From contig JAGCXV010000082.1 in NCBI GenBank assembly GCA_017961175.1, forward strand, positions 1 to 34,042: a stretch of DNA of 34,042 nt, in the 5' to 3' direction. A program made the position numbers and the translations under genes. The notes under the pieces were generated by a model, which saw nothing but the letters and a program-made list of their open reading frames with translations, searched no databases and was not told the DNA's origin. Every line of letters begins with the position of its first letter. Position 1 is the stretch's first letter. This document shows, piece by piece, positions 14,625 to 34,042 of the stretch. The stretch comes from Bacteroidales bacterium (GTDB taxonomy: Bacteria; Bacteroidota; Bacteroidia; Bacteroidales; UBA932).

Positions 14625-14693
14625 AGTACTATGTTTTACGTGTTAAAAATTCAAGTCGCGGAACTTAGGCACAAGTTAGCATTTTATTTTGAC

Positions 14694-14707
14694 ATATCGG
14701 CCGATAT
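14694..14707. promoter_or_regulatory. Perfect 14-bp palindrome between divergent genes
   Basis: ATATCGGCCGATAT is a perfect inverted repeat in the 141-base gap between the lipoprotein gene (minus) and the secreted paralogue (plus). Its position fits an operator for a dimeric regulator acting on one or both promoters. No exact TAnnTTTG box is visible nearby; TCTATTTG at 14743-14750 is the closest on the plus strand. Confidence 0.4.
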
Positions 14708-14765
14708 AAGTAACTTTACCAGACAAGACCACTCAATAATTGTCTATTTGCAAATAAACAATATT

Positions 14766-16013
14766 ATGAAAACAAGATTTATCTTCAGTGCATTGCTTGC
14801 CTCGGCTCTCATGTTCGTGGTATGCACCCCAGCAGACGCTCAGCTCAAGGGCGTTCTCAACAAGGCCAAGAAGGCCGTGGAAAAGAAAGTTGAACAGAAG
14901 GTAGATGAGGTTCTGGATGGCGATTCAAACCAGTCCAGCACCACAACAACCAATTCTTCCAAGAAAACAACTTCTACAACCCGGAGCACTACATCCCAGA
15001 CGGCAGATCAGCCTGCCGGCAAGTCTTATGGTCAGGGTCCTGAGATTCCCAAGCTTATGTCTATGGAACCTTCATACAGCGACTATGACGAATCCGGCAA
15101 GTATCTGAACAGTGTGGCTTGGGGCCTGAGAAAGACTTCCCAGGCAGAAGCAAAAGCTCTTGCAGAAAAGCTTACAGCCCGCTTCAAGTGGGATAGGAAG
15201 ACTCTTCAGGAAATGGAAGCAGGAGAAAACTACGAGCTCGAAATGCAGCTGAAGAATGAATTGAGCAACTGGCAGTCTTTCTATGTCAAAATCGGTGAAA
15301 TAATGAACCTCATAAACAACGGGGATTACAAAAAAGACAATACCGGGGCTTTCTATCTGGATAAAGCTCCACTTATGCATGTCGGCATGCACGTTGCTGG
15401 CAACACTGCTAGTGAAGAAGGAGTTATGGGCATTGGTTCACTGCTGTTTACAAGAAACAAAGGAAAGGCATATTTCTGCAATTACATGCTGGATCCTGTT
15501 TTCGCCGAGGAAGACGGCATAAGAGTGGCCAAGCTGGATTTGAACATGGCAACCAATATCGCCATTTTGTTCGAAGGCTATCCTGTAGAGTGGTGCCGCG
15601 AAACGCAGCAGGGTGTTATGAAAGACCAGTTTGCCATTTACCACCAGAAAGCTGTGGCCTATGTTTCCGCTCTGAAAGAAGCTATTAAGGGCAATTCTCT
15701 GGATAATCTTGAATACAAGCCCGTTCCTAAGGCCGGCGGCATGAACGCCTCAATGAATGCAAAGGCTCTTGCAGCTGAGAAGCAGAAGGGAAAGGATGTG
15801 GTTAAGGTTGTAATCACCAGCAATTCCTGGGAGATTCAGAAAAACGCCATGGGACAGCCAGTCCGCAGGGTTATCTACGGATATTCAATCGGAAACACCA
15901 AGCACGGCAAGATGGCCTCAAGAGTTTCCTGGGCAGAAGACTACCAGGGCGGCGGCAAATACGGATCCCTGCATTGCTACGGTGTCGGAACCGAGTACTT
16001 CTATGTTAAATAG
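14766..16013 (+). CDS. Secreted protein of unknown function, tandem paralogue 1
   Basis: I place the start at the ATG at 14766, which begins the signal peptide (MKTRFIFSALLASALMFVV, cleavage near PADAQ); the frame is open further upstream but without a signal. The product has 415 residues. Right after the cleavage site comes a Lys-rich amphipathic segment (LKGVLNKAKKAVEKKVEQ), then a Ser/Thr linker to about residue 80, then a mainly helical and mixed domain of about 330 residues. The C-terminal part (WEIQKNAMGQPVRRVIYGYS ... RVSWAEDYQGGGKYG) is nearly the same in the next gene. I do not recognise the family. It heads a tight four-gene run with paralogue 2, a pseudouridine synthase and an SDR enzyme. 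Confidence 0.75.
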   Translation: MKTRFIFSALLASALMFVVCTPADAQLKGVLNKAKKAVEKKVEQKVDEVLDGDSNQSSTTTTNSSKKTTSTTRSTTSQTADQPAGKSYGQGPEIPKLMSMEPSYSDYDESGKYLNSVAWGLRKTSQAEAKALAEKLTARFKWDRKTLQEMEAGENYELEMQLKNELSNWQSFYVKIGEIMNLINNGDYKKDNTGAFYLDKAPLMHVGMHVAGNTASEEGVMGIGSLLFTRNKGKAYFCNYMLDPVFAEEDGIRVAKLDLNMATNIAILFEGYPVEWCRETQQGVMKDQFAIYHQKAVAYVSALKEAIKGNSLDNLEYKPVPKAGGMNASMNAKALAAEKQKGKDVVKVVITSNSWEIQKNAMGQPVRRVIYGYSIGNTKHGKMASRVSWAEDYQGGGKYGSLHCYGVGTEYFYVK

Positions 16014-16028
16014 TAAAAACATATTATT

Positions 16029-17246
16029 ATGAAAACGAAATTTTTTTTCAGATCGCTCCTCATCGCGATTCTAGCACTTGGCATCTGCGCTTCCGCAGAC
16101 GCCCAGCTCAAGGGAGTTCTCAACAAGGCCAAGAAGGCCGTAAAGGAAGCAACTTCGGATAACTCCAGCAAGTCTTCTTCTTCAGCGACAACCACGTCTT
16201 CCAACTCAAACAGTCAGGTTAAATCAAAGATTACCGATAACGGTCCTGAATGTCCGGAAGTCTTGAAATTGGAACCATCTTATAGACCGGGTGATCCTAC
16301 AGACACATATATGGAAGAGCTTACCTGGGGGCTTAGGACTATGTCTCATCCCGAAGCAAAGGCACTTGCCGCAAAATTAAATGCTCGTATCAAGTGGGAC
16401 CTTGAACAGATTAAAAAACTGGAGAGCAAAGATAGAACAATAGAAGAGGGAGACTTTTATCACGCACTTAGGCAGGAAGTTAACAACTGGGATAAATTTG
16501 TAGGAAAAGCAGGAACTTATGTAGCGCAGATGACATCTATCAATTGGGAAAAAGACGCTCAAGGGAAGTTCTTTTACCGCGATAAATTTCCGTTGTTTCA
16601 TACAGGCCATTGGATTTCTGGTGTCCCTGCCAGTCTGGAAGGAGACATAAAGGGGAATAACTCTATGGTTTCCAAAGTGGACGGCAAATTTGTCTTTTGT
16701 TATTCCAATGGTGAAAAGTTAATTCCTATAGTAGCAAAGCCAGGTGAGATTAGGGTTGCGAAATTGGATGCCAACATGGCATTGAATGTTGGCTATCTGT
16801 TAGACGGCTTCCCTCTTGAATGGTGGAGGGCTGACAATAAGGGGACTGCCATGGAAGATACTTGGGACAAGTGTTATTGGAGTGCACTGATGTTTGTTCA
16901 GGCTATTGCGGAAGCAGTCCAGAATAATTCACCATCCAATATCAAGTATGAGGCAATGCCTAAACCAGGAGCCATGAACGCTTCCATGAAGTCAAAGATT
17001 CTGGCACTGGAGAAGAGCGCGTTCCCTGATGTAGTGGATGTCGTAATCACCAGCAACAACTGGGAAATCCAGAAGAATGCCGCAGGCCAGCCTGTACGCA
17101 GGGTTATTTACGGATATTCCATTGTAAAGACAGAGAACGGCAAGATGGCCACCAGGGTTTCCTGGGCTGAGGACCATCAGGGTGGCGGAAAATACGGAGC
17201 CGTACACGGCTACGGAAACGGAATGGAGACATTCTATGTGAAGTAG
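16029..17246 (+). CDS. Secreted protein of unknown function, tandem paralogue 2
   Basis: The product has 405 residues with a signal peptide (MKTKFFFRSLLIAILALGI, cleavage near SADAQ). It shares with paralogue 1 the segment QLKGVLNKAKKAV just after cleavage, a Ser-rich linker, the LEPSY motif, the WGLR...EAKALA(A/E)KL helix, and the whole C-terminal block ending GKYG...FYVK. The middle (about residues 80-300) is more divergent and its codons are AT-richer than those of the two ends. It starts 15 bases after paralogue 1 and ends one base before the pseudouridine synthase start, so all are probably on one transcript. Family and role not recognised. Confidence 0.75.
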   Translation: MKTKFFFRSLLIAILALGICASADAQLKGVLNKAKKAVKEATSDNSSKSSSSATTTSSNSNSQVKSKITDNGPECPEVLKLEPSYRPGDPTDTYMEELTWGLRTMSHPEAKALAAKLNARIKWDLEQIKKLESKDRTIEEGDFYHALRQEVNNWDKFVGKAGTYVAQMTSINWEKDAQGKFFYRDKFPLFHTGHWISGVPASLEGDIKGNNSMVSKVDGKFVFCYSNGEKLIPIVAKPGEIRVAKLDANMALNVGYLLDGFPLEWWRADNKGTAMEDTWDKCYWSALMFVQAIAEAVQNNSPSNIKYEAMPKPGAMNASMKSKILALEKSAFPDVVDVVITSNNWEIQKNAAGQPVRRVIYGYSIVKTENGKMATRVSWAEDHQGGGKYGAVHGYGNGMETFYVK

Positions 17247-28918: not shown

Positions 28919-28996
28919 TAAAACTCTACAATCAATATTTCAAAACCCTACAAATTGGGCTTACAACATATTTATGTGGGGTTTAAAACTCTACAA
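28919..28996 (+). repeat. Direct repeats upstream of the phosphate-type operon (possible Pho box)
   Basis: The 12-base element AAAACTCTACAA occurs at 28920-28931 and 28985-28996, and AAAACCCTACAA at 28942-28953. Weaker TTTCAA (28938-28943) and CTTACAA (28960-28966) lie between. CTACAA-type cores therefore recur at roughly 10-13 base steps, like the tandem half-sites used by PhoB/PhoP-type regulators. The cluster ends 26 bases before the -7 box of the operon, a place suited to an activator. Confidence 0.55.
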
Positions 28997-29022
28997 GGTG
29001 TATTTTGTTTGTTCTATTTGCA

Positions 29023-29030
29023 TATATTTG
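29023..29030 (+). promoter_or_regulatory. -7 box of the phosphate-type operon
   Basis: TATATTTG matches TAnnTTTG exactly, 28 bases before the DUF47 start. The best upstream TTTG (29004-29007) is only 15 bases away, too close for a standard -33 box. A weak -33 region with repeats just upstream is typical of an activator-dependent promoter. Confidence 0.6.
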
Positions 29031-29718: not shown

Positions 29719-31323
29719 ATGGATAGTCTCCTGTACATAATCCTTTCCGTCGTTTTTGCCGGCACGATGCTGATGCTGCTGGACCTGCCTTATGTCAGTG
29801 GCAGCATACTGGCTTCCGGCGCTGGGGAGAGGATAGCTGTCAGGATTCTGATTCCGGTTCTTTTGCTTGGCGGCATTGTACTGCCGGTTCTCTCTCCGGA
29901 GCATTTTACCCAGATGACGCAGGGGCTTATGAAGCCGGAGGCTGTCTGCAATGTACTCCCGGTTGGTATAGCTACTGCCGTTACGGCGGTAATCATCCTG
30001 GGATTCAGCCGTTATGCTGCAGTTCCGTTCGCCTTTGTGGCGGCTGTGGCCGGAATGGGGCTTGCCTGCGGAGGCTCTCTGGATTTTGCAGATGTGCTGC
30101 CTTATGTTTCCTCCTGGATTGCGGCCCCGCTGATTTGCGCATTGGTGGCAGCCGGCATTTACAGCATTTTTGCGGCTACGGGGAGGAGGCGTGAGTCTCA
30201 TTTTGCAGTTACGGAGGGACGGTTCCTTTCCGCGGCGACAATAGTGGCTTTCTTACTGGCCATTGCCGCGGCTGTGAACAATTCCATTGTGTTTACCTTC
30301 CTGCCTTCAGGCCTGGGGGAAAATGCAATTTGGGTGGTTGCCGGTTCGGCTCTGGCTATTCTGCCTTTCGTTTTCCGTCACGTGACCATGAGCAAATGGT
30401 ACATCGCGGATTATGAACTGGATACTAATCCACAGGCCATCATCAGCCTTATGCTGAGCATGTTGGTCTGCTTTGTCCTTTTCACCAGCCCGGCCCCGCT
30501 CCGCCTCGGGCTTGCAGCAACCCCGCTTCCTGCCGGAACGCTTTATCTGGCCGCCTTGGCTGGGATAAGCCTGCGCAGCAAACGTACCCTGGTGGACGGG
30601 CCGATTCTTCTGAAAGGAATCATATCTTCTTACATATCACCTCTTCTGGCCTTCCTCCTGGCCTTTTCTCTGGGAAGGATAATGGACGGAGAGCTGACCG
30701 GGACATTCATCGTCTTGGGTATCATAATACTGATAGCCGGGGTGATTGTCTACATGAGGGTCCAGAGCCAGAGGATAATCAATCAGCAGATTGCCAGGGC
30801 TCACGAGCAGCAGGTGTATTCCACCAGGAAATCCCTCTCAGCTCTGGAGGTCAGGGCCGAGATGACCGAGAAAGACCTTCTGAACAAGCTGGATCTCAAG
30901 CGCAAGGAGCTTGTGGACTTTGCGGTTGGCATCAGCGACCAGAAAGATTTTATGGAAAGCGTGTATGAGCAGCTTAAAGAAGTCAGGGCAACCAGGGAAG
31001 GTGCGGAAAAGGATGCCAGGACAGATGCCCTCCTGCGGTCACTTCGGGAGAGAATGTACTTCACAAGGGAGATGAATGACTTCTACACCCGAAGCGAAGA
31101 GCTCCACAAGGACTTCAACGAGAGATTGGCTGAGAGTTTCCCTAAACTTACGGAAAATGAGCGTAAGCTGGCCAACCTTCTCAGGCAGGGCTTTTCCAGC
31201 AAATATATCGCATCGCTGATGAACATAACCCCTAAAAGCGTGGAAATAAACCGCTACCGCCTAAGGTCCAAACTTGGACTGGCGCGCAGCGAAAACCTTA
31301 TAAATTTCATTAAATCAATTTAA
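29719..31323 (+). CDS. PiT-like polytopic membrane protein fused to coiled coil and LuxR-type HTH
   Basis: The product has 534 residues. Residues 1 to about 350 hold about ten to eleven membrane helices that read like a degenerate PiT phosphate permease. After the first helix comes a GLMKPE segment where PiT proteins have GIxxPE-type text, then AAVPFAFVAAVAGMGLACGG where they have a PVSTTHA-type motif, then a SWIAAPLICAL helix. The second half has AFLLAIAAAVNNSIVF in place of the GANDVANA signature, and ISSYISPLLAFLLAF. The Asn-Asp pair needed for phosphate is missing. Residues about 355-470 are a coiled coil. Residues 476-534 are a LuxR/GerE HTH (LTENERKLANLLRQGFSSKY ... EINRYRLRSKLGL). I infer a membrane-bound transcription factor that senses phosphate or DUF47 state. 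The PiT relation is by eye. Confidence 0.72.
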   Translation: MDSLLYIILSVVFAGTMLMLLDLPYVSGSILASGAGERIAVRILIPVLLLGGIVLPVLSPEHFTQMTQGLMKPEAVCNVLPVGIATAVTAVIILGFSRYAAVPFAFVAAVAGMGLACGGSLDFADVLPYVSSWIAAPLICALVAAGIYSIFAATGRRRESHFAVTEGRFLSAATIVAFLLAIAAAVNNSIVFTFLPSGLGENAIWVVAGSALAILPFVFRHVTMSKWYIADYELDTNPQAIISLMLSMLVCFVLFTSPAPLRLGLAATPLPAGTLYLAALAGISLRSKRTLVDGPILLKGIISSYISPLLAFLLAFSLGRIMDGELTGTFIVLGIIILIAGVIVYMRVQSQRIINQQIARAHEQQVYSTRKSLSALEVRAEMTEKDLLNKLDLKRKELVDFAVGISDQKDFMESVYEQLKEVRATREGAEKDARTDALLRSLRERMYFTREMNDFYTRSEELHKDFNERLAESFPKLTENERKLANLLRQGFSSKYIASLMNITPKSVEINRYRLRSKLGLARSENLINFIKSI

Positions 31324-31352: not shown

Positions 31353-32720
31353 ATGCGTAAAACATTATTATTACTGGCGATTTCCCTTCTGGCAGTCCAG
31401 ACAGTATTCGCCCAGGAGAAAGTAAAGCGCAACCAGTACGGAGTAGCCGTTCAGTCAGACAGACTCGACGTTGAGGCTCAGGACGGTATTCTGGTTTTTG
31501 AATCCCCTAACAGTGCCTACAAGCTCTGGTTCGACACCCGTATCCAGGCTGATGGAGCAGTTTTCTTCGGCCAGGACAAAGACTATGACAACATCGGAAA
31601 CGGCACCAGCATCCGTCGTGCCCGTTTTGCCATCAAAGGCCAGATCAACGAAAGTTGGTACGGTGAGTTCGATATGGACCTTGCAGATGGTCTGATCGAG
31701 CTTAAAGACGCTCTCGTACGTTACACCGGCGTTCCTAACCTGGAACTTCAGGCAGGTAACTTCAAGGAGAATTTCTCCCTGAACCGTAACACCACCTCCC
31801 GTTACCTTCAGTTCATGGAAAGGCCTATGGTTACTTCCGCTCTGGCTCCAAGCCGTCATCTTGGTATCAACGCCAAGTATGCAAAGGACTGGTTCTGGGG
31901 ATCTCTGGGTGCTTTCACCCAGGAAGTTGCCGGTTCTGAGGAGCTCACCTATGTCCAGGACAACAACAAGGACTATGGCCGCAACACCGGTTACTCTATC
32001 ACCGCTAAGGTTATCTTCCGCCCTCTGTACAAGATGCAGAACGGAAGCCTCCACATCGGTCTGGCAGGATCTTACCGCAGGGCTCTTACCAGCGTAGATC
32101 CTAAGGAGTATGGAGCTTACAGGGCAAGTGCACGTAACTCCACCAGCATCAACCGCAAGAAGTATCTGGATACCGACCTCCTTCCTGGCTACGACCACAA
32201 CTTCCTGTGGACAGTAGAGCTTGCAGGTCACTATGAGGGACTCCGTTACGAGGCTGCATACATCGGCGACAACGTTCACTTCAAGAAGACCGCTGCCGAT
32301 CCTGCTACCAAGAACTTCGGCGGATGGTATGCTCAGGCTGGTTACCTTCTGTTCGGCGGAAGCCAGAACTATGACGCAAACGGTGGCAAGTACACCAAGG
32401 TTACCCGCGGCCGCAAGTGGGGCGATATCGAGCTCTGCGCACGCTACGAGTACTGCGACCTCAACTACAAGAACGTTTACGGCGGTTCAGCCGAGGCTTA
32501 TACCGTAGGTCTTAACTGGCAGGTAAACAACAACGTGAAGATAGTTCTCAACTATCAGTACAACAACAACGACCGTTATGCAAACGGTAAGAACAAGCTC
32601 TTCGTAGGCCACGATGCAAGCGGCAACCCTACAAAGGATTACACAAAGGTTGTTGAAGGCAAGAACAAGGCCGGTGTAGACTACCATATGCTTGGAATTC
32701 GTTTTGAGATTGACTTCTAA
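31353..32720 (+). CDS. Porin O/P family outer-membrane porin
   Basis: The product has 455 residues with a signal peptide (cleavage near VFAQ). It shows the porin O/P layout: LWFDTRIQADGAVFFGQ, SIRRARFAIKGQINESWYGE, LELQAGNFKENFSLNR and APSRHLGINAKYAKDWFWG, then alternating beta strands and a C-terminal phenylalanine (RFEIDF) that marks an outer-membrane barrel. The family founders, OprP and OprO, are anion channels for phosphate and pyrophosphate; other members are less specific. Its codons are strongly biased, which suggests high expression. It follows the PiT-HTH gene by 29 bases, in a locus that looks devoted to phosphate. Confidence 0.92.
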   Translation: MRKTLLLLAISLLAVQTVFAQEKVKRNQYGVAVQSDRLDVEAQDGILVFESPNSAYKLWFDTRIQADGAVFFGQDKDYDNIGNGTSIRRARFAIKGQINESWYGEFDMDLADGLIELKDALVRYTGVPNLELQAGNFKENFSLNRNTTSRYLQFMERPMVTSALAPSRHLGINAKYAKDWFWGSLGAFTQEVAGSEELTYVQDNNKDYGRNTGYSITAKVIFRPLYKMQNGSLHIGLAGSYRRALTSVDPKEYGAYRASARNSTSINRKKYLDTDLLPGYDHNFLWTVELAGHYEGLRYEAAYIGDNVHFKKTAADPATKNFGGWYAQAGYLLFGGSQNYDANGGKYTKVTRGRKWGDIELCARYEYCDLNYKNVYGGSAEAYTVGLNWQVNNNVKIVLNYQYNNNDRYANGKNKLFVGHDASGNPTKDYTKVVEGKNKAGVDYHMLGIRFEIDF

Positions 32721-32734
32721 AATTGACACAGATT

Positions 32735-33550
32735 ATGAAAAAGATATTTATAGCAGCATTTGCAATGCTTTTCGTATTCAGTTCTTGCGTTAAGGACAAG
32801 GTTTATTCAGTCCCTACCATTACTGGAGTTACCAATACCATAGCCTACGATGAGACAGAAGATGTAACCGTAACGGCTATAGTTTCTGCACTCGTTCCTG
32901 TATCTGAGGTTAATCTTATTTACAAGGCCGGAAGCTCCGCTGCCGCCACTGTCAAGATGGAAGGACTCGGAGAGAGCTTCAAGGGAATCATCCCTGCCCA
33001 GCCGATGGGAACCGAGGTTGTTTATTACATTGAGGCCTTTACCGATGGAGGAAATGCTATTTCAAAGGAAGCTTCCTATACCGTCGGAGTTATTCCTATC
33101 GACTTTACTGTTCTCAAGCTCAACGAGCTTAACGGAAACGACAAGTTCATCGAGATAGTTAACACCGGTAGAGAAAATGTCAATCTCAAGGGTCTGAAGA
33201 TCCTCAAGGACACCAAGGATGTATGGACCGGTCCTAACCGCGAGCTTGCTGCAGGCGCATTCCTGCTTCTGTACAGCGAAGACGTAGTTGTTTCCGGCGG
33301 CGCTCAGGAAGGCTATGATCCAGAACTGGTATTCACATCAGGTCTGTCCGCAAAGAAGGCCGTCAGGGTTCAGCTCAACGACCCTGTAGGCAATCCTCTC
33401 GATGACTTCAACCTGGTAACAGTTTCCAAGACCGCTCCGGCTTCCTACAGCCGCGTTCCAGACGGAACAGGAAATTGGTTCTTCACTCCTGCCACCCCTG
33501 GTGTAAAGAACTCTACAGACAATTCAGATCCTGTAACCGGACTTATGTAA
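32735..33550 (+). CDS. Lipoprotein with lamin-tail-like domain
   Basis: I start it at the ATG at 32735 rather than a TTG at 32723, giving 271 residues. A signal peptide ends in the lipobox FSSC, so this is a lipoprotein. Residues about 30-125 look like an Ig-type beta sandwich (SEVNLIYKAGSS, VVYYIEAFTDGGNAIS). Residues about 130-255 are lamin-tail-like: LKLNELNGNDKFIEIVNTG, VNLKGLKILKDTKDVW, ending with the VPDGTGNWFF...TPGVKN motif usual in this family. Such domains occur on secreted nucleases and surface proteins and often mediate binding. It follows the porin by 14 bases, so it may work with it at the outer membrane; role not established. Confidence 0.82.
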   Translation: MKKIFIAAFAMLFVFSSCVKDKVYSVPTITGVTNTIAYDETEDVTVTAIVSALVPVSEVNLIYKAGSSAAATVKMEGLGESFKGIIPAQPMGTEVVYYIEAFTDGGNAISKEASYTVGVIPIDFTVLKLNELNGNDKFIEIVNTGRENVNLKGLKILKDTKDVWTGPNRELAAGAFLLLYSEDVVVSGGAQEGYDPELVFTSGLSAKKAVRVQLNDPVGNPLDDFNLVTVSKTAPASYSRVPDGTGNWFFTPATPGVKNSTDNSDPVTGLM

Positions 33551-33569: not shown

Positions 33570-34042
33570 ATGGCAGAATTGAAAATCGGTGAAATAAGCA
33601 AGCCTAGATTTGAATTCCGCAGCTTCGGCCAGTGCTTCTGCAAGGCTCATCAGAGAATGGCACGTCTTTCAGTTCCTGTTCCTGAGAAAGTTTGGGAAAG
33701 GTCAAGCGACGAGATTTACATCATCTCCGCAAAGAACGATATCAACAACACCAAGATCCGAGACGGAAAGATGGACATAAAGACATTTGTCCAGTGTGTT
33801 GACGGACTTGAGCAGTGGAACCCACTGATGAAGGGCGAATTCCCGATCAGCCGCGAGGTTCTGGAGAAGGAAGTTTTCCCTGCATTTATGGTTGAGATGC
33901 CAGCCCTTACAAAAGACACCTATACTTTTGATGAGTTTATTGCGATGGTTAAGGCCAATCCAGACCTTGCTGCGGTGAGAGTTCACAAGCAGAGGTTCGG
34001 ATATATGGTCAACAACACCATCTGCGAGGTGGGCAACGTGCT
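33570..34042 (+). CDS. CYTH-like protein (3' partial)
   Basis: The frame starts at ATG 33570 and is open to the window edge (157 codons), so the gene is incomplete. No signal peptide is present, so it is cytoplasmic. Patterns typical of CYTH / triphosphate-tunnel proteins can be read: RFEFRSFG near the start, then EIYIISAKNDINNTKIRDGK and MDIKTF in the middle, and VRVHKQRFGYMVNNTICEVG near the edge, with alternating Lys, Arg and Glu. CYTH proteins act on triphosphates, including polyphosphate and thiamin triphosphate. The placement in a phosphate-type locus fits, but the assignment is from a partial sequence by eye. Confidence 0.45.
   Translation, partial: MAELKIGEISKPRFEFRSFGQCFCKAHQRMARLSVPVPEKVWERSSDEIYIISAKNDINNTKIRDGKMDIKTFVQCVDGLEQWNPLMKGEFPISREVLEKEVFPAFMVEMPALTKDTYTFDEFIAMVKANPDLAAVRVHKQRFGYMVNNTICEVGNV

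Follow-up and report, generated by a model that had tools for sequence, protein, structure and literature searches.

A PiT-derived membrane protein with a LuxR-type DNA-binding end is a candidate one-component regulator of its own DUF47/porin operon in Bacteroidales

The locus studied here raises the question of whether a protein that joins a transporter-like membrane domain to a DNA-binding end still carries a solute, controls genes or does both. Its gene occupies positions 29719..31323 on the forward strand of the window (by which we mean the whole stretch of 34,042 nucleotides that was analysed) and encodes 534 amino acids from an ATG start. We divide the protein into a degenerate PiT membrane domain (residues 1–346, positions 29719..30756; assigned by hhalign, tree and motif columns), a linker and coiled coil (residues 347–470, 30757..31128; from alignment and conservation) and a GerE/LuxR HTH match (residues 476–527, 31144..31299; from a profile match and conservation), all on the forward strand. 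The membrane domain has 10 hydrophobic segments at a Kyte–Doolittle threshold of 1.6 and 11 at 1.4, the last of which ends at residue 344. The HTH exceeds the Pfam cut-off for GerE (PF00196; E = 5.3 × 10−7, 29.6 bits against a cut-off of 23.5). These 10–11 predicted helices, the coiled coil and the HTH bear out the architecture that a first-pass annotation, made from the letters of the window alone, had described for one 534-residue protein. With this single protein as the query, Pfam and NCBIfam return nothing beyond the HTH.

Orthologues with 41–98% identity are encoded at 31 loci in genome contigs, the titles of which name Bacteroidales or Bacteroidia, with rumen samples as the source of many. 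Because these 31 loci encode the protein and keep its DUF47 and porin O/P neighbours, it is more than a chance open reading frame. For the comparisons below we aligned 23 orthologues (alignment A1), comprising the window protein and 22 of the 29 full-length loci; near-identical copies (L031–L034 and L038–L040) and incomplete ones (L056 and L061) were left out.

In the window, the gene starts directly 3′ of a gene for a 219-amino-acid DUF47 protein (PhoU-like, PF01865; 29059..29718, forward strand; 26.8 bits against a Pfam cut-off of 24.4). It is followed on the same strand by genes for a Porin_O_P outer-membrane protein of 455 amino acids (31353..32720; Pfam E = 1.3 × 10−41) and a putative lipoprotein with a lamin-tail domain (LTD; 32723..33550; Pfam E = 5.8 × 10−9). 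The association with DUF47 and porin O/P that had been claimed from this one sequence recurs across the orthologue loci: DUF47 lies directly upstream in 29 of the 31, the remaining two loci starting inside the gene, and the porin lies downstream in 31 of 31. The opposite pattern, in which homologues never sit beside DUF47 or phosphate genes and which the first-pass annotation had named as evidence against its reading, is not what these loci contain. The LTD lipoprotein is 3′ of the porin in 29 of 31, and the gene order of DUF47, orthologue, porin, LTD lipoprotein and a 212-amino-acid protein holds at every locus that extends far enough to show it.

The first-pass annotation had derived the membrane domain from the PiT family, in which a DUF47 neighbour is typical, and had proposed a search with the PHO4 profile (PF01384). 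That search gives a divided answer: the window protein itself has no match in Pfam even at an E value of 10, whereas the orthologues of four genomes (G019, G026, G029 and G061) match below the cut-off with E values of 2 × 10−5 to 9 × 10−5. A profile of A1 compared with 177,635 PDB sequences finds the PiT transporter TmPiT (6l85) at E = 1.5 × 10−4; chance-level rows aside, no other transporter appears among the 16 PDB matches listed up to an E value of 10. The best alignment pairs the first half of A1 with the second half of TmPiT. We also compared residues 1–350, using hhalign, with 149 multi-helix open reading frames from the loci, a set that includes 53 orthologues of the query and two frames of the L079 gene. 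Scores are 65–110 against 33 frames (30 genes) of DUF47-type PiT or PiT–LuxR proteins, mostly over about 300 collinear columns, compared with 15.5–27.9 against 26 canonical PHO4 frames, which overlaps the background in part, and at most 19.6 against 35 frames outside PHO4. These scores indicate that the link to PiT runs through one DUF47-linked subfamily and is weak to canonical PiTs. The order of the PiT landmarks, and the lack of the Asn–Asp pair, both of which had been noted from the single sequence, are found on the alignment. The missing PHO4 match of the single protein could be taken to mean that the likeness to PiT is fortuitous and that the membrane domain has another origin. This idea is hardly credible and we reject it, as it is contradicted by the sub-cut-off PHO4 matches of the orthologues, the TmPiT match, the alignment landmarks, the hhalign scores and the tree described below. 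On this profile and tree evidence, the membrane domain is PiT-derived, as had been proposed, and homologous over its length to the DUF47-linked PiT branch. We dropped one further candidate: the protein of G055 at L078:2575-4116 has the matching operon order and a LuxR tail, and its membrane part has an hhalign score of 14.4, which falls inside the background; this domain would be either a case of extreme decay or a swapped input domain.

Intact counterparts of the protein exist. In a genome from another genus of the same family (G073, locus L080), a 583-amino-acid protein matches both PHO4 (E = 3.8 × 10−55) and GerE (E = 2.4 × 10−10), and its operon runs from DUF47 through this fusion to porin O/P and the LTD lipoprotein. 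The first-pass annotation had suggested a survey of DUF47 neighbours for similar fusions, and in such a survey of 393 genomes of the order Bacteroidales, at least 21, from 14 families, encode an intact PiT–LuxR fusion between DUF47 and porin, end to end and with no stop (a lower bound, with three candidates scored per genome); two further genomes of the order have the LuxR tail after a longer linker. At the loci L114–L136, DUF47 lies in front of the fusion in 22 of 23 cases and porin O/P behind it in 21 of 23. A draw of 395 genomes from the phylum gave 12 matches at E = 1 × 10−50 or better, none of which extends beyond the PiT part; in these samples, the fusion therefore looks confined to the order. 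Three fusions with a stop codon inside the match (L119, L135 and L138) were excluded from the trees and element counts. In NCBIfam, the intact form comes nearest to a model for a sulfate permease (PiT superfamily), scoring 77 bits against a cut-off of 400. In four cases (L132, L134, L137 and L139), the LuxR tails stand apart from those of the other fusions and nearer to unrelated coiled-coil LuxR regulators, and this separate grouping means that the fusion may have arisen twice.

A tree of the membrane domain places the 24 degenerate rows in one clade (support 100/100) nested inside the fusions, with L131 next outward (96/96) and then L080 (89/94). Long branches and unusual composition were flagged for this tree, in which the degenerate clade sits on a stem of 2.39 changes per column. 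L131 has GAQG where GAND is expected. When rooted among other regulators, a tree of the tails only recovers the same succession of neighbours, but with the degenerate forms in three changes rather than one clade. As reconstructed from these trees, the window protein descends from intact PiT–LuxR fusions on a very long branch. The PiT–LuxR reading of the first-pass annotation is upheld, but it had missed both the intact fusions and this descent from them.

The motif columns of A1 record what was lost along this branch. The GAND of repeat 1 is kept in 0 of 23 orthologues, and only the Asn is left of the GANDxxN signature of repeat 2 (N in 23 of 23, NN in 18 of 23). The full P-x-S-[ST] motif is kept in 0 of 23 in both repeats, although all 23 retain the Pro of repeat 2. 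This decay is not neutral, given dN/dS values for the membrane domain of 0.045–0.19 against seven relatives (dS being saturated in three of the seven pairs). Five residues that are invariant in the membrane domain of A1 (G34, A35, E37, N187 and D235) suggest a rebuilt site. Overall, the membrane domain is the least conserved part of the protein, with 12 of 346 positions invariant, compared with 41 of 124 in the linker and coiled coil and 39 of 64 in residues 471–534. By these counts, the rumen lineage to which the window belongs lost the transport signatures, with strong conservation emerging in the tail. One reading of this imbalance is that the membrane part is only an anchor or scaffold, that DUF47 or some other partner supplies the signal and that the operon is regulated by the HTH. 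The fast divergence of the membrane domain beside a strongly conserved coiled coil and HTH fits such a role, as does a DUF47 gene that always adjoins where the locus reaches it; however, purifying selection and several invariant polar residues in the membrane domain speak against it, and keeping 10–11 helices for this purpose is costly, so that we consider this reading decidedly unlikely.

If the tail binds DNA, its sites might be sought in front of the operon, and region 28919–29030, to which the first-pass annotation had pointed, contains CTCTACA repeats whose occurrence follows that of the LuxR tail from genome to genome. On the forward strand, an exact distal copy lies at 28924..28930 (−135 from the DUF47 start), a variant copy, CCCTACA, at 28946..28952 (22 bp, or two helical turns, after the distal site) and a proximal CTCTACA at 28989..28995, which is 34 bp (start to start) before a candidate −7 box, TATATTTG, at 29023..29030. 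The consensus of the Bacteroidota −7 box is TAnnTTTG, and a match to T[AT]NNTTT[GA] is present in 25 of 25 orthologous promoters. The same 25 promoters all have CTCTA[CT]A upstream of DUF47, with 68 sites in total; 300 Markov samples give an expectation of 1.4 and a maximum of 5. Spacings of 11, 22, 43–44 and 55 bp recur between the sites, and the distance from the proximal site to the −7-like box is 34 bp in 19 of the 25 promoters, 35 bp in one, 55–61 bp in four and 21 bp in one.

The element extends beyond the orthologues. An unbiased count of 7-mers upstream of 27 LuxR-tailed relatives outside the group ranks CTCTACA first (12 regions compared with 0.32 expected) and CACTACA second (11 regions compared with 0.62 expected), and C[TA]CTACA occurs upstream in 21 of the 27 (in L078 on the reverse strand only); the set includes L142, which runs off its contig before the HTH, and L129, with 96 bp of upstream sequence only. 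The six relatives without the exact element are L120, L126, L128, L080 (one-mismatch forms), L129 and L130. By comparison, it is found in none of 11 DUF47–PiT operons without a tail within the order and in 1 of 12 outside it. The difference between 21 of 27 and 0 of 11 is significant if kinship is ignored (Fisher P = 1 × 10−5). Because the tree offers only two independent pairs, of which both or one of two agree (sign test P = 0.5), kinship may explain the link between tail and element. With this reservation, the CTCTACA cis-element goes with the LuxR tail in the genomes compared. The fusion at L130:1501-3237 has a degenerate-looking HTH and no CTCTACA upstream, possibly through a joint loss of HTH and element.

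At the genome scale, CTCTACA-N35-65-CTCTACA occurs once in the genome of the window, at the operon promoter, and a spaced CTCTACA pair is present at this promoter in 12 of 12 same-genus carriers of the protein. The loose pair pattern is matched in 21 of 26 genomes, including 9 of 14 chosen without the protein. Of 61 genomes, two have the strict 11-bp CTCTACA pair, in each case at the DUF47/porin operon. The genome G055 has the reversed control pattern of the pair 26 + 9 times, probably as a repeat family of that genome. We rejected the Na/Pi cotransporter gene as a further target of control through the element, as no CTCTACA is found within 250 bp upstream of such genes in the 9 of 12 carriers that are readable, plus one second copy. 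The sites could instead belong to another regulator, such as PhoB, with the LuxR tail acting elsewhere. The Pho box of Escherichia coli has an 11-bp direct-repeat period, and the 11-bp direct repeats CTCTACA-4-CTCTACA of many of the promoters resemble this geometry. However, such a regulator would be expected to leave its sites in front of tail-less DUF47–PiT operons and Na/Pi cotransporter genes too, and the strict pair should not be confined to two genomes and this one operon; we find the alternative quite unlikely, and judge a general Pho box to be the less likely identity of the element on the same grounds.

The setting for phosphate uptake bears on whether the protein still transports. 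Twelve genomes of the same genus carry the protein (eleven detected directly, and the twelfth, G061, via its DUF47 and a 547-amino-acid frame). None of the 12 has a PHO4 protein over the cut-off, compared with 14 of 27 same-genus genomes without the protein (Fisher P = 0.0026, kinship ignored), and PstA is found in 0 of 12; as the genomes are 73–92% complete, these absences are soft. The Na/Pi cotransporter domain (PF02690) is present in 12 of 12. A cell that uses a Na/Pi cotransporter could spare PiT transport and keep the signal function. In G071, the degenerate form and a canonical PiT occur together.

The protein might still be a carrier of the PiT superfamily, to which sulfate permeases belong, with a remodelled site for phosphate, sulfate or another anion and a LuxR tail that couples flux to transcription. 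Purifying selection on the membrane domain fits this, the new invariant residues suggest a site that was rebuilt, not abandoned, and the 12 carriers yielded neither a PiT over the cut-off nor PstA. Against it, GAND and the full P-x-S-[ST] motif are gone from all 23 orthologues, the membrane domain is the part that varies most, and every carrier has the Na/Pi cotransporter. Continued transport is unlikely on this evidence, and the window protein, judged by its motifs, is probably no longer a transporter.

Given the descent from PiT, the lost signature residues and the DNA-binding end, the protein probably acts as a single-polypeptide nutrient sensor with control over its own operon. We assign a probability of roughly 0.6 to the reading that it is a PiT-derived, membrane-bound one-component regulator of the DUF47/porin operon in which it lies, and the one-component PiT–LuxR regulator of the first-pass annotation gains support from the PiT-derived domain, the DUF47/porin setting and the promoter elements. 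The ancestor-like form would combine an intact PiT, a coiled coil and a LuxR HTH, as carrier and transcription factor in one molecule; in the rumen lineage, the carrier would have turned receptor after the loss of its signatures. The membrane domain, perhaps together with the PhoU-like DUF47 protein, would read the supply of an anion, and the coiled coil would relay its state to the HTH. As a dimer or higher oligomer, the HTH would bind the CTCTACA repeats a short way upstream of the −7 box, where activators typically sit, and would thereby activate the genes for DUF47, the regulator itself and the porin. We infer the binding of the HTH to these elements, the direction of control and the part of DUF47 as a signalling partner from this arrangement. 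The ligand is most likely phosphate, which is favoured by the presence of DUF47 and the porin in the operon; sulfate would be the less likely alternative, suggested by the NCBIfam model nearest to the intact form (far below its cut-off) and by the downstream DASS anion symporter.

In the textbook view of bacterial phosphate sensing, separate proteins form a chain, Pst–PhoU–PhoR–PhoB. In the present case, a single polypeptide beside a DUF47/PhoU-like neighbour would combine sensor, carrier ancestry and transcription factor. Relative to the PiT family (PF01384; TC 2.A.20; TmPiT 6l85), to which its membrane domain is homologous over its length, the window protein lacks the signature motifs, stays below the Pfam cut-off and adds a coiled coil and a LuxR HTH. 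One-component regulators of the CadC/ToxR type are likewise membrane-bound and bind DNA themselves, as the window protein is predicted to do; they possess a single helix, and their winged HTH is N-terminal, whereas the window protein has 10–11 transporter-derived helices and a C-terminal LuxR HTH. In yeast, Snf3/Rgt2 and Ssy1 are relatives of carriers that gave up transport and are now receptors; unlike the window protein, they are eukaryotic, come from other families and lack a DNA-binding domain. The LuxR-tailed coiled-coil regulators of Bacteroidales (approximately 950–1,000 amino acids) have a similar coiled coil and HTH tail (28–38% identity), but different input parts and no PiT domain. 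CbrA and MxtR/CrbS are SSS-domain sensor kinases that use a secondary-transporter domain as input (PMC7918813); in these, an SLC5-type domain is combined with a histidine kinase that acts via a response regulator, whereas in the protein studied here PiT is joined directly to a DNA-binding domain. A literature search of open-licence papers (titles and abstract openings) found no description of a PiT–LuxR fusion. Transporter-derived sensors are already known, and what appears to be new is the direct joining of PiT to a DNA-binding domain.

On balance, we lean towards a wider picture in which one-molecule transporter/transcription factors form a family within Bacteroidales. In this family, a PiT carrier with a LuxR domain of its own would signal its state straight to the promoter of the DUF47–carrier–porin operon via CTCTACA repeats; one rumen lineage would then have lost transport and become a pure membrane receptor, leaving the transporter, transceptor and receptor stages of a single evolutionary path in existence together. 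The series from an intact carrier, through an intact carrier with an HTH and a partly decayed one with an HTH, to a receptor-like form makes the path from transporter to receptor testable, and the CTCTACA element offers an immediate target for tests of promoter activity and binding. If the reading of a one-component regulator is true, the protein would be a candidate for controlling phosphate or anion uptake in gut and rumen Bacteroidales, including 12 carriers in which neither Pst nor a canonical PiT was found.

Several other genes deserve mention. Elsewhere in the window (14631-17246), two adjacent open reading frames of 460 and 405 amino acids have no Pfam match at an E value of 0.001. The 212-amino-acid protein encoded after the LTD lipoprotein (33570-34040 in the window, running past its end; L034:8852-9490) has no Pfam or NCBIfam match, and its complete copies share 91–99% identity, making it far more conserved than the adjoining regulator. 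Farther 3′ of the operon (L034:9493-11537 and equivalents), a CYTH-domain protein is encoded at 26 of the 31 loci and the DASS anion symporter at 25. The CYTH gene also lies 3′ of tail-less PiT operons, and DASS is found just upstream of the DUF47–PiT operon at 9 of 12 loci outside the order.
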